This document shows positions 7,057 to 10,086 of a DNA stretch of 64,000 nt, one piece after another. Position numbers and translations under genes: made by a program. The stretch is taken from assembly GCF_016921195.1 (NCBI RefSeq), contig NZ_JAFGYF010000004.1, positions 124,001-188,000 on the forward strand, written 5' to 3'. The number at the start of each line of letters is the position of its first letter. Positions within the stretch are counted from its first letter, which is position 1. Source of the DNA: Cellulosimicrobium cellulans. Its GTDB lineage: Bacteria > Actinomycetota > Actinomycetes > Actinomycetales > Cellulomonadaceae. The notes under the pieces are model-generated. The model did not search any database, was not told the origin of the DNA, and saw only the letters and a list, made by a program, of their open reading frames with translations.

Positions 7057-7102
7057 GGTCCGCTGCCGAACCCGGCGCTATCGCCGGGTTCGGCAGCGGA
7101 CC
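7057..7102. repeat. 21-bp perfect inverted repeat (palindromic repeat, copy 1)
   Basis: The left arm 7057-7077 (starting GGTCCGCTGCCGAACCCGG) and right arm 7082-7102 pair perfectly over 21 bp with a CTAT loop. It lies between the Nudix regulator stop and the coiled-coil gene. The first 19 nt recur exactly at 7215-7233. It could act as a terminator, but its repetition marks it as a REP-like dispersed element. Confidence 0.85.
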
Positions 7103-7149: not shown

Positions 7150-7995
7150 TCAGCGACGCGGGCGCATGAGCGGCGGGTCGAGGACGGCGGGCACGCTCGC
7201 GGGCGCGAGGTCAGGGTCCGCTGCCGAACCCGGGGTTGTGGTCACGCCGAGCGCCGAGCCCGGCGACAGCGCCGGGTTCGGCGCGGCGCGGTAGAGGGTC
7301 GCGGGGCGGCCCGTGCCGCCCGACGTCGTCCGGCCCGTGTCCTCGAGGAAGCCCGGGGTCGTCGTGGCCTTGCGCGAGAAGTTGCGCGGGTCGAGCCGCA
7401 CGCCCCAGACCGCCTCGTAGACACGCCGCAGGTCGGCGACGGTGAACTCGGGCGGACAGAACGCGGTCGCGAGCGCCGAGTACTCGAGCTTGGCGCGGGC
7501 ACGCTCGACGCCGTCGGCGAGGATCCGCGCATGGTCGAACGCGAGGCCCGACGGCGCCCGGTCGCCTGGCTCCGTCGCCCCGCCCGGCGCCGCCGCGAGC
7601 AGCGGCTCGACGCGGTGCCAGGCCGCTCCCCCGGCGTCGGACCCGGCGCGCACGACGCCGAACTCGGGCGCGAGCAGGAGGTAGGCGACGGAGAGGACCG
7701 GCCCGCGCGGGTCGCGGTCGAGCGGGCCGTACGTGCGGAGCTGCTCGAGGTGGCCGGGCGGACGGACGCCGGTCTCCTCCGTGAGCTCTCGCCGTGCCGC
7801 CCCGGCGAGCCCCTCTCCCGGCAGGACGAAGCCGCCGGGCAGGGCGAGCGCGCCACGGAACGGCTCGATGCCGCGCTCGACGAGCAGCACGTGCAGGGCG
7901 TCCTCGCGCACCGTGAGCGCGACGACGTCGACGGTGACGGGCAGCGTCGCGGCGGTCGGCGGGATGTCGGGGTTCGGGCTCGCGGGCGGCGTCAT
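7150..7995 (-). CDS. NrtR-like Nudix regulator (Nudix domain plus winged helix)
   Basis: A 281-residue protein with an N-terminal Nudix domain whose catalytic box is complete at residues 55-77 (G, five residues, E61, seven residues, then RELTEETGV). The C-terminal winged-helix domain (FTVADLRRVYEAVWGVRLD, NFSRKATTTPGFLEDTG, GRPATLYRA) is that of NrtR-type repressors, which sense ADP-ribose-type ligands and control NAD genes. The intact box allows real hydrolase activity too. The last ~45 residues (from PNPALSPGSALG) are encoded by the palindromic repeats and look added on. Start at ATG 7995, where homology begins; an in-frame upstream extension would cross the shared promoter. Divergent from the SPFH gene. 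Confidence 0.87.
   Translation of the reverse strand: MTPPASPNPDIPPTAATLPVTVDVVALTVREDALHVLLVERGIEPFRGALALPGGFVLPGEGLAGAARRELTEETGVRPPGHLEQLRTYGPLDRDPRGPVLSVAYLLLAPEFGVVRAGSDAGGAAWHRVEPLLAAAPGGATEPGDRAPSGLAFDHARILADGVERARAKLEYSALATAFCPPEFTVADLRRVYEAVWGVRLDPRNFSRKATTTPGFLEDTGRTTSGGTGRPATLYRAAPNPALSPGSALGVTTTPGSAADPDLAPASVPAVLDPPLMRPRR
7215..7282. repeat. Palindromic repeat copies inside the 3' end of the Nudix regulator gene
   Basis: 7215-7233 repeats the first 19 nt of the 7057 element. 7253-7265 (GCCGAGCCCGGCG) and 7270-7282 (CGCCGGGTTCGGC) form a further hairpin with one mismatch and an ACAG loop. All three share the GCCGAACCCGG core. They encode the low-complexity tail after the winged-helix domain. 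Confidence 0.8.
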
Positions 7996-8016
7996 GCGGC
8001 CATCGTCGCACGTTCG

Positions 8017-8029
8017 CGTCAGGTTGACG
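8017..8029. promoter_or_regulatory. Candidate operator 1 (CGTCA-GGT-TGACG) over the -35 box
   Basis: Perfect 5-bp arms CGTCA and TGACG separated by GGT. The right arm overlaps the TTGACG -35 box at 8024-8029 of the SPFH promoter. It shares the CGTCAG...ACGA pattern with the palindrome at 8055-8075, so both may bind the divergent Nudix regulator. Confidence 0.5.
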
Positions 8030-8052
8030 AGAACGGCGGACAGGACTAGCGT
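8024..8052 (+). promoter_or_regulatory. Sigma-70-type promoter of the SPFH/NAD-kinase-like operon
   Basis: TTGACG (8024-8029) and TAGCGT (8047-8052) are separated by 17 nt, the best-looking housekeeping promoter in the window. The predicted start lies at about 8058-8060, inside the palindrome at 8055-8075, so a bound repressor there would block initiation. Confidence 0.65.
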
Positions 8053-8054
8053 CA

Positions 8055-8075
8055 TTTTCGTCAGAACGACGAAAA
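8055..8075. promoter_or_regulatory. Candidate operator 2 (TTTTCGTC-N5-GACGAAAA)
   Basis: Perfect 8-bp inverted arms, TTTTCGTC at 8055-8062 and GACGAAAA at 8068-8075, spacer AGAAC. It is notably AT-rich for this genome and sits over the expected transcription start. The natural candidate ligand is the NrtR-like protein encoded divergently. Confidence 0.6.
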
Positions 8076-8089
8076 AGATCGGAGCGACC

Positions 8090-9160
8090 ATGGCCACCAT
8101 CCGCACCTACCCGTGGACCCGGCACTTCCTCGGCAGCCCCACCGGGCACGTCGTGCACCTGCGCCGCGGGCGCGTCGCGCACGAGGGCGTCGGGCAGGCG
8201 TTCTGGTTCCGCCCGACGACGTCCGTCCTCTCGGAGGTCCCCGTCGACGACCAGGAGCTCCCCGTCTTCTTCCACGCCGTGACCGCCGACCACCAGGACG
8301 TCACCGTCCAGGCCGGGGTCACCTACCGGTTCGCCGACCCGGTGACCGTCTCGCAGCGCCTCGACTTCGCCGTCGACCCCGGCAGCGGCGAGACGAGCAC
8401 CGCGGGACGCGACCAGGTGACGAGCATCGTCGGACGGCTCGCGCAGAGCCGCGCCACCGACGCGATCGCCACGATGCCCCTCGCCGACGCGCTCACGGCC
8501 GGCGTGCCGCGCGTGCGCGAGGTGCTCACCGAGGCGCTGACCACGGACCCCCGGCTCACCGCGACCGGGATCGTCGTCATCGGCGTCCAGGTGCTCGCCG
8601 TCCGGCCCGAGAAGGACGTGGAGCGCGCGCTCCAGACGCCGGCCCGCGAGCAGGTCCAGGCCGAGGCGGACCGCGCGACGTACGAGCGCCGTGCCCTCGC
8701 GGTCGAGCGCGAGCGCGCGATCGCCGAGAACGAGCTCGCGAGCAAGATCGAGCTCGCGACGCGACGCGAGCGCCTCGTCGCCCAGGAGGGCGCGAACGCC
8801 CGGCGAGAGGCGGAGGAGAAGGCGGCCGCCGCGCTCGTCGACGCCCGCGCGACCGCCGAACGTGCGCAGCTCGCGACGGACGCGCAGGCCGAGCAGGTGC
8901 GAGTCGTCGGCGCGGCCGAGGCCGCCGCCGAGCAGGCCCGCATGGACGTGTACGCGAGCGCCGGCCAGGGCACGCTGCTCGCGCTCGCGCTGCGCGAGGC
9001 CGCCGGGTCGCTGCCCGCCGTGCAGAACCTCACCATCACGCCCGACCTGCTCACCGGCGTCCTGTCGACGCTCGTGCGCGGCCTCGGGCCCGACGGCGGC
9101 CCGGCCGGCCCGCTGGACGGCGCCGGCGCTCCGGTGGGGACCACCGGGAAGGCGGCGTGA
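8090..9160 (+). CDS. SPFH/Band-7 domain protein
   Basis: A 356-residue prohibitin/flotillin-type (SPFH) protein. The N-terminal half is the SPFH beta-sandwich (VPVDDQELPVFFHAVTADHQ, VTVQAGVTYRFADPV, GIVVIGVQVLAVRP). Residues about 190-300 form the usual Ala/Glu/Arg-rich coiled coil (AVERERAIAENELASKIELA, AQEGANARREAEEKAAAALV) that drives oligomerisation. A Gly/Pro-rich tail ends the protein. No transmembrane helix is evident, so membrane contact would be peripheral. ATG 8090 with GGAG 6 nt upstream. The next gene starts 2 nt after the stop, so translation is probably coupled. In an NAD-themed locus it may scaffold or membrane-localise an NAD enzyme; this is inference. Confidence 0.88.
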   Translation: MATIRTYPWTRHFLGSPTGHVVHLRRGRVAHEGVGQAFWFRPTTSVLSEVPVDDQELPVFFHAVTADHQDVTVQAGVTYRFADPVTVSQRLDFAVDPGSGETSTAGRDQVTSIVGRLAQSRATDAIATMPLADALTAGVPRVREVLTEALTTDPRLTATGIVVIGVQVLAVRPEKDVERALQTPAREQVQAEADRATYERRALAVERERAIAENELASKIELATRRERLVAQEGANARREAEEKAAAALVDARATAERAQLATDAQAEQVRVVGAAEAAAEQARMDVYASAGQGTLLALALREAAGSLPAVQNLTITPDLLTGVLSTLVRGLGPDGGPAGPLDGAGAPVGTTGKAA

Positions 9161-9162
9161 CG

Positions 9163-10086
9163 ATGCTGCGACGGCGCGCCGTCGTCGTGCACCGGCGGAC
9201 CGAGCTCGACGACCTGCTCGACCGGCACGGGACCCGCGGCCAGGCGGAGTTCTTCCTCCGCTCGCGCGGCCGGTCGCTCGGCGAGGTCCAGGCGCGGCAC
9301 GACGCGCTCGCGGCGGCGCGCGACGCCGTCGTCGCCGCCCTGCCCACCGGCTGGGCGCGCGCGGACGTCGAGCGCGCGGACCTGTCGCGCTTCCTCGTCG
9401 CACCCGAGGACGTCGTGGTCGTCGTGGGGCAGGACGGCCTCGTCGCGAACGTCGCGAAGTACCTGCGCGGCCAGCCGGTCCTCGGCGTCGACCCGGAGCC
9501 CGGCGTGAACGCCGGCGTGCTCGTGCGGCACACGGTGGCGGCGGCGACGGCCCTCCTCCGTGGGCTCGGGGCCGAGACCGAGGCAACCGGCGGCGCGCCC
9601 GACCGGGTGGCGGTCCTGCCGGTGGACGCGCTGACCATGGTCCGCGCCGACCTCGACGACGGGCAGCACCTCACCGCGCTCAACGAGGTGTTCGTCGGGC
9701 ACCCGAGCCACCAGAGCGCGCGCTACACGCTGCGGTGCGCGGCGGGCGAGGAGCGGCAGTCGTCGTCGGGCGTGCTCGTCGCGACGGGCACGGGCGCGAC
9801 CGGCTGGTGGGCGTCGCTCGCGCACGACCGCGGAGGGCGGCGGGCCCCGGGGCGCACCGAGCACCGGCTCGGCTGGTTCGTCCGCGAGGCGTGGCCCTCG
9901 CCCGCGACGGGCGCCACGCTCACGGAGGGTGTCGTGGAGGAGGGCGCCGACGTCGCGCTCACCGTCGCGTCGGACCGCCTCGTCGTGTTCGGCGACGGCG
10001 TGGAGGACGACCGCCTCGTCGCCTCGTGGGGCCAGACCGTCACGGTGCGCACCGCCGACGCCCCGCTCCGGCTCGTCCGCCCCTGA
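9163..10086 (+). CDS. NAD kinase-fold protein
   Basis: A 307-residue protein with the landmarks of ATP-NAD kinases, which make NADP. GQDG at 89-92 replaces the canonical GGDG but keeps the catalytic Asp91. LNEVFVGHPSHQSARY is the NE-motif region contacting NAD, and SSGVLVATGTGATGW corresponds to the family's Thr/Gly-rich TPTGSTAY segment. The first ~75 residues differ from typical NadK, and the spacing before GQDG includes an extra basic helical stretch (FFLRSRGRSLGEVQARHDAL). It may be a divergent NAD kinase or an NAD(P)-binding sensor. It is 2 nt downstream of the SPFH gene and divergent from the NrtR-like regulator, so context also says NAD. Confidence 0.78.
   Translation: MLRRRAVVVHRRTELDDLLDRHGTRGQAEFFLRSRGRSLGEVQARHDALAAARDAVVAALPTGWARADVERADLSRFLVAPEDVVVVVGQDGLVANVAKYLRGQPVLGVDPEPGVNAGVLVRHTVAAATALLRGLGAETEATGGAPDRVAVLPVDALTMVRADLDDGQHLTALNEVFVGHPSHQSARYTLRCAAGEERQSSSGVLVATGTGATGWWASLAHDRGGRRAPGRTEHRLGWFVREAWPSPATGATLTEGVVEEGADVALTVASDRLVVFGDGVEDDRLVASWGQTVTVRTADAPLRLVRP

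Follow-up and report, generated by a model that had tools for sequence, protein, structure and literature searches.

In bacteria, the supply of nicotinamide adenine dinucleotide phosphate (NADP) is usually drawn as the work of one constitutive kinase of nicotinamide adenine dinucleotide (NAD), and SPFH/Band 7 proteins, which include stomatin, prohibitin, flotillin and HflKC, commonly regulate other proteins, as in the pair HflKC-FtsH. We analyzed a stretch of 64,000 nucleotides of Cellulosimicrobium cellulans (contig NZ_JAFGYF010000004.1, positions 124,001 to 188,000; below, the window), in which a Nudix regulator gene of the NrtR type lies divergent from a tightly coupled pair of genes encoding an SPFH protein and a protein resembling NAD kinases (positions 7150 to 10086). 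This three-gene locus is a real, conserved unit. From its sequence we lean, by a little, toward the reading that it forms a self-contained NAD-responsive switch.

The closest described regulators are those of the NrtR family, such as NrtR of M. smegmatis and S. oneidensis and NdnR of C. glutamicum. According to the accessible part of PMC6800001, M. smegmatis NrtR is an autorepressor that is released from DNA by ADP-ribose, and it has a degenerate Nudix box and no detectable hydrolase activity; the accessible part of PMC4666351 describes the Nudix box of NrtR regulators of NAD metabolism as impaired. The regulator of the window resembles these proteins in combining a Nudix domain with an NrtR winged helix, in its divergent locus and in its palindromic operators, which in relatives precede NAD genes too. 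However, it faces the SPFH-kinase pair and not nadABC, its operator reads TTATCGTCA-N3-TGACGATAA instead of the mycobacterial GTTTTCGA-N7-TCGAAAAC (accessible part of PMC6800001), and the box of the actinobacterial regulators at such loci is intact, in contrast to the impaired box reported in the accessible part of PMC4666351. In the open-licence literature we found no description of an SPFH-NAD kinase-Nudix locus, which may be mentioned elsewhere; SPFH and NAD kinase are absent from the accessible part of the NrtR paper PMC9503650.

Gene organization and distribution of the locus

The features of the locus, with positions counted from the first letter of the window, are as follows.

7150..7995, minus strand (ATG at 7995): Nudix and winged-helix regulator (NrtR-type), 281 amino acids; Pfam NUDIX and NrtR_WHD
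8013..8033, no strand: operator site 1, TTCGCGTCAGGTTGACGAGAA; position weight matrix (PWM) score 29.8
8024..8052, plus strand: SPFH promoter, TTGACG-17-TAGCGT
8055..8075, no strand: operator site 2, TTTTCGTCAGAACGACGAAAA; PWM score 31.1
8090..9160, plus strand: SPFH / Band 7 protein, 356 amino acids, without evident transmembrane segment; Pfam Band_7, hydropathy
9163..10086, plus strand (ATG at 9163): NADK2-like kinase-fold protein (GQDGLVAN family), 307 amino acids

The initial annotation, made from the letters of the window, had placed an SPFH gene divergent from the regulator and, 2 nucleotides further on, a kinase-fold gene with GQDG, LNEV and ATGTGATGW segments. Coordinates and translation bear all of this out (GQDG at residues 89-92, LNEV at 173-176, ATGTGATGW at 207-215); its account did not include the operator pair and the promoter in the intergenic region. 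An in-frame GTG at 9157 overlaps the SPFH stop codon, and the kinase-like gene is probably translationally coupled to the SPFH gene. In the mechanical list of open reading frames, the Nudix gene begins at GTG 8106 (318 amino acids); relatives favor ATG 7995. Ratios of nonsynonymous to synonymous change lay between 0.07 and 0.26 for the regulator, SPFH and kinase-like genes (simple count against four relatives), and the kinase-like protein is 96% identical to the copy of C. funkei JCM 14302.

When public genomes were searched with the kinase, 161 relatives were confirmed, and the best 80 of these 161 were surveyed. All surveyed loci were found through the kinase, and SPFH or regulator copies without it fall outside the survey. 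The SPFH gene lies immediately 5' of the kinase gene in all 80 loci (partial only in L100 and L102), and a divergent Nudix gene, hence the full trio, is present in 73 of these actinobacterial loci; coupling of SPFH and kinase was seen in 79 of 81 loci. By record titles, 26 of the 80 come from Arthrobacter, Paenarthrobacter or Pseudarthrobacter, so that the rows cannot be treated as independent; the survey also reaches Actinomyces, Kineosporia, Frankia, Jiangella, Klenkia and Actinoplanes. In one draw of 149 genomes from the order of the window's genome, the kinase was matched in 22, in one of these only very weakly. The family profile matched 61 of 396 genomes of the phylum, with the window's genome and 12 others scoring far above the rest (one of the top-scoring matches being split in two) and the weak matches spanning just the region common to canonical NAD kinases.

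In a plasmid collection, 62 records matched the kinase at 1e-3. Nine of these loci were compared directly; each has SPFH and kinase, and six also have the Nudix regulator, so that the full trio occurs in Rhizobium etli, Cupriavidus, Methylomonas, Moraxella, Proteus and Providencia. At the Roseomonas, Treponema and Streptomyces loci, where SPFH and kinase are present, the Nudix regulator was not found by this comparison. Kinase and SPFH genes thus adjoin in three phyla, and the NAD-type repressor stands beside them in two of these. The neighborhood survey that the initial annotation had proposed therefore favors its three-gene unit, both in the kinase-found loci (73/80) and in the opened plasmid-collection loci (6/9). 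No fourth conserved gene emerged when the window's own four flanking genes were sought in 89 loci, as they recurred in only 9-15, the closest relatives. Beside the Methylomonas module, a neighboring gene (L139:6133-7197) is annotated as a NUDIX hydrolase, yet no Pfam family matches it at 1e-3.

Operators at the locus and before NAD-salvage genes

The paired 21-base-pair palindromic operator lies in the intergenic region, at the SPFH promoter. Site 1 (8013-8033) holds the -35 element and is 17 nucleotides from the start codon of the regulator, and site 2 (8055-8075) begins 2 nucleotides past the -10 element. Within the window the best score outside the module was 0.3, compared with 29.8 and 31.1 at the two operators, both of which were part of the PWM training set. 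Operators were counted in 80 regions, including the window's own and excluding L100, whose SPFH start is off the contig: two sites were found in 72 regions and three in four, so that 76 have at least two; of the rest, two regions have a single site and two lack sites. A promoter of the form TTGAC[AGT]-17/18-TA...T fits 71 of the 72 two-site loci, with the -35 within site 1 and the -10 directly before or within site 2; in 35 loci the -10 is part of the site 2 sequence and is therefore not independent evidence. Over the 72 loci, the TT preceding GAC is conserved at 99-100% at site 1 but at 31% and 75% at site 2, as expected if site 1 doubles as the -35. With operators over the -35 and over the -10/start region, the layout is that of a repressor. 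At the Streptomyces plasmid locus (L143), where no Nudix gene was found, two operator-like stretches were recognized by eye. In Jonesia (L045/L221), about 800 base pairs separate the SPFH and Nudix genes (about 1710-2410 of L221), apparently containing a small lipoprotein-like frame, with operator(s) on each gene side.

Genome searches used the 21-base-pair form of the operator. The short core TCGTCANNNTGACGA with two mismatches had proved useless in the G+C-rich genome, where it matched 794 times forward and the reversed control 72 times. When up to two mismatches are allowed, the window's genome contains two operator sites, both at this locus; the regulator there looks like a local switch and not like a general regulator of NAD homeostasis. 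Of the 149 genomes of the order, 17 contain sites with no more than one mismatch, and the kinase is present in 16 of these 17, compared with six of the 132 others (Fisher p ~1e-15, relatedness ignored). The reversed operator pattern occurs in none of the 149.

From among the matches listed, 31 stretches were examined, including L221, itself a module locus that has an additional site. As a pair we counted two sites with PWM scores of at least 23 within 60 nucleotides, a line drawn after the scores had been seen and on which the second G538 site (23.0) falls exactly. Among the matches listed, nine genomes have operator pairs outside the module, and seven of the nine pairs precede NAD-salvage genes: pnuC-nadR in G536, G560, G556 and G085, and pncB-pncA in G538 (G121 has the same coordinates), G569 and G135. 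A single strong site precedes pnuC-nadR in G079 (L263). Pfam confirms pnuC and nadR in G536 and pncB in G538, and the other salvage genes rest on tblastn comparison with references of this kind. Genes for pnuC, nadR, pncB or pncA were not found in the other examined stretches, which have single, mostly weaker sites. Five examined stretches of Arthrobacter type (L228-L232) carry another NrtR gene followed by nadA; a related single operator, such as TTATAGTCANNNTGACTAGAA, lies upstream in these loci.

By sequence, a palindrome thus stands at the regulator's own promoter and at that of its putative target, as is characteristic of NrtR proteins, and it is common to NAD genes as well, these in relatives only. 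Its recurrence before salvage genes lends independent support to the link with NAD metabolism that the initial annotation had drawn, and the regulator's place in NAD metabolism is, on comparative grounds, well supported. In the Kineosporia-type genomes G538 and G135 the module regulator is the sole NrtR_WHD protein found, and control of pncB-pncA in trans is likely there; G569 has two such proteins. In four Arthrobacter-type genomes an additional NrtR paralogue, with 45-47% identity to P0001, adjoins pnuC-nadR, and the reader of the operator before these genes is therefore uncertain. This third paralogue was seen beside pnuC-nadR at L292-L296, L298 and L299.

The three proteins

The window's regulator matches Pfam NUDIX (PF00293, 3.7e-16) and NrtR_WHD (PF21906, 1.3e-15), both above cut-off, and its Nudix box (G-x5-E-x7-REUxEExGU) is intact, in agreement with what had been read from the sequence at the outset. 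It misses the threshold of the NCBIfam equivalog for NtrR, NF050029 (98.3 versus 400 bits). A search with NrtR_WHD found no second protein of this type in the window's genome. Of 73 actinobacterial module regulators (L054, whose start was misread, was dropped from the count), 71 have an intact box. It is not intact in any of six proteobacterial module regulators, nor in any of the 12 rows nearest to the nadA-linked NrtR, some of which are the same gene twice and beside five of which nadA was verified. The window's regulator thus departs from the degenerate box that is typical of, though not strictly defining for, NAD-type NrtR proteins. The intact box suggests that the actinobacterial module regulator could be bifunctional.

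The kinase-like protein scores 15.3 bits with Pfam NAD_kinase (PF01513), below the cut-off of 25.5, and also misses the NCBIfam cut-offs for NAD kinases; for the Rhizobium and Treponema copies no Pfam family was found at 1e-3. Several records annotate the protein as "sugar kinase" or "hypothetical", the Rhizobium and Methylomonas copies being among the "sugar kinases". However, a profile of 40 relatives searched against the PDB found NAD kinases, and an AlphaFold2 model (mean predicted local distance difference test score, pLDDT, 93.4) matched NAD kinases in a fold comparison. Human NADK2 ranked first in both, with an E value of 1.2e-13 in the profile search. An NAD kinase fold, nearest to that of the human mitochondrial enzyme NADK2, is therefore predicted with high confidence, which upholds the fold first proposed for the third protein.

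In NAD kinases, the aspartate of GxDG is the catalytic residue. It is kept in 90 of 90 members of the family, and the NE/ND motif in all, SSG in 89 and the C-terminal F.DG in 89 of the 90. The first motif reads GQDGLVAN in 84, GPDGLVAN in five and GSDGLVAN in one member, and GGDG in none. This pattern identifies the family as a distinct branch with most catalytic positions, and most substrate motifs, kept. With human NADK2 (PDB 7r4j-7r4m, 7n29) the family has the SSG and TGTG..W motifs in common; it differs from it in its overall sequence (21% identity), in GxDGLVAN (x being Gln, Pro or Ser) replacing GGDG in a protein of 307 amino acids, in the conserved stretches TRGQAEFF and REAWPSP and in the adjoining SPFH gene. 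To our knowledge, neither stretch is among the landmarks of NAD kinases. A canonical NAD kinase is encoded separately in the window's genome (G000:C12:633179) and has the motifs GGDGT, CDG and TATGSTAH in the equivalent positions; the module kinase differs from such enzymes in missing the Pfam and NCBIfam cut-offs. The Roseomonas kinase (L135) has an additional C-terminal tail with a hydrophobic stretch (residues about 340-395), possibly a membrane anchor.

The SPFH protein matches Pfam Band_7 (3.3e-15, 57 bits, cut-off 23.6) and, like stomatin, prohibitin, flotillin and HflKC, continues from this domain into an Ala/Glu/Arg-rich tail that is probably a coiled coil. Unlike these proteins it starts directly with the SPFH domain, without an evident N-terminal transmembrane helix, and its gene is coupled to that of a kinase-fold protein in loci found through the kinase. 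By simple hydropathy, no hydrophobic N-terminus was seen in 86 SPFH copies (highest 19-residue mean 1.37 within the first 60 residues). Three of the 86 exceed 1.6 within the SPFH core, and the maximum for the window's protein is 1.36. A membrane scaffold is therefore not supported by the sequence; peripheral or lipid attachment is possible. Of the regulated, membrane-scaffolded NAD(P) enzyme put forward in the initial annotation, the link to NAD and the conserved trio gain support; membrane anchoring and, in the window's own genome, a general homeostatic role do not.

Proposed switch, alternatives and further observations

As a self-contained NAD-responsive switch, the locus would work as follows. 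The regulator would repress its own gene and the SPFH-kinase pair. Its release would be brought about by a breakdown product of NAD (ADP-ribose, by analogy with known NrtR proteins) or by NAD. Both members of the pair would then be produced together and act jointly; the SPFH protein would assemble into a cytosolic or peripheral oligomer, shaped like a ring or cage, on which the kinase is held. The kinase, an inducible second enzyme next to the housekeeping NAD kinase, would phosphorylate NAD(H) to NADP(H) or act on a closely related NAD-derived nucleotide. In actinobacteria, the regulator with its intact Nudix box may also reset the switch by hydrolyzing the signal to which it responds. More tentatively, we can imagine an undescribed device for NAD(P) homeostasis in at least three phyla, in which a soluble SPFH oligomer organizes NAD(H) kinases of a second family resembling NADK2, and NAD breakdown induces it through a dedicated NrtR-type repressor that in actinobacteria might also be a signal-destroying hydrolase. 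New here is the paired operator at the SPFH-kinase promoter, mapped in actinobacteria. An SPFH protein gains a concrete candidate enzymatic partner, and the locus may be an unstudied route for tuning the cellular supply of NAD and NADP that offers direct tests of the kinase substrate and the regulator ligand.

Several points weigh against the proposed switch. That the SPFH protein would hold the kinase is suggested by the coupling of their genes, and the kinase reaction, effector binding and repression are likewise predicted from sequence. The second glycine of GGDG is replaced by Gln, Pro or Ser in all 90 members; together with the missed Pfam and NCBIfam cut-offs, this leaves room for a different substrate or a loss of activity. 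As a canonical NAD kinase is present, a second one is not obviously needed. Seven of the 80 loci have no Nudix gene (L084, L092, L097, L098, L100, L101 and L102), at least two of which (L092, L100) stop at contig ends near the module. The regulator tree, its bootstrap not settled, does not unite the actinobacterial and proteobacterial module regulators; the partnership may therefore have arisen more than once, and a single origin could not be shown from it. At the proteobacterial and Treponema loci, a simple palindrome scan of the stretch preceding SPFH turned up different repeats and not the actinobacterial operator. Two of the non-module operator pairs stand elsewhere than before salvage genes, one preceding an RNase Z-like frame in Luteimicrobium (G563, L223, 1957-2001) and one at the end of a contig, next to a transposase-like frame (G015, L264), and the Arthrobacter-type pnuC-nadR operator may be read by the adjoining NrtR paralogue instead.

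Some of these points could also be accommodated if the kinase acted on another NAD-derived molecule (ADP-ribose, nicotinamide riboside or mononucleotide, or damaged NAD) and the module disposed of or recycled the breakdown products of NAD. We consider this unlikely, yet worth keeping in view: no member has GGDG, the family has its own conserved TRGQAEFF and REAWPSP stretches, the genome already has a canonical NAD kinase and the regulator belongs to an ADP-ribose-sensing type, but the nearest relative in structure and sequence, with SSG and TGTG..W in common, is NADK2, an NAD kinase. Less likely again is a catalytically dead kinase-fold protein that would sit on the SPFH oligomer as an NAD(P)-binding sensor or adaptor and convey nucleotide status to a membrane or protease partner. 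Retention of the catalytic aspartate in every member and of F.DG in 89 of 90 would be unusual for a pseudoenzyme across three phyla, even though the altered glycine motif, the coupling in 79 of 81 loci and the precedent of HflKC-FtsH fit such a role. An anti-phage or conflict system working via NAD metabolism appears very improbable. Its patchy occurrence in the order (22/149 genomes) and presence on large plasmids would suit such a system, but matches to PADLOC were weak only (E 0.002-0.004), a search of a phage collection gave no match, no defence genes were recognized among the annotated neighbors of the opened loci, and the operator precedes NAD-salvage genes too. A chance or clade-limited neighborhood without functional meaning, for which the four flanking genes likewise common to the closest relatives might speak, is hardly credible, as the trio spans Actinomycetota and Pseudomonadota far beyond the reach of those flanks and has a matched operator in actinobacteria, so that the survey already contradicts it.

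In the Moraxella and Proteus records (L140, L141) the module adjoins tet(H) or tet(J). Fragments of the kinase gene from its 3' end occur on plasmids of Pasteurella, Actinobacillus, Psychrobacter and others (records H78-H80 and H114-H120) and may be passenger scars from mobilized neighboring genes. A palindrome resembling repetitive extragenic palindromes, GAACCCGGCG-N4-CGCCGGGTTC, occurs twice near the regulator gene, at 7060-7099 and, inside the Nudix coding sequence toward its 3' end, at 7218-7281 of the window; with up to two mismatches it was found at 23 places in the genome, compared with none for the reversed control.

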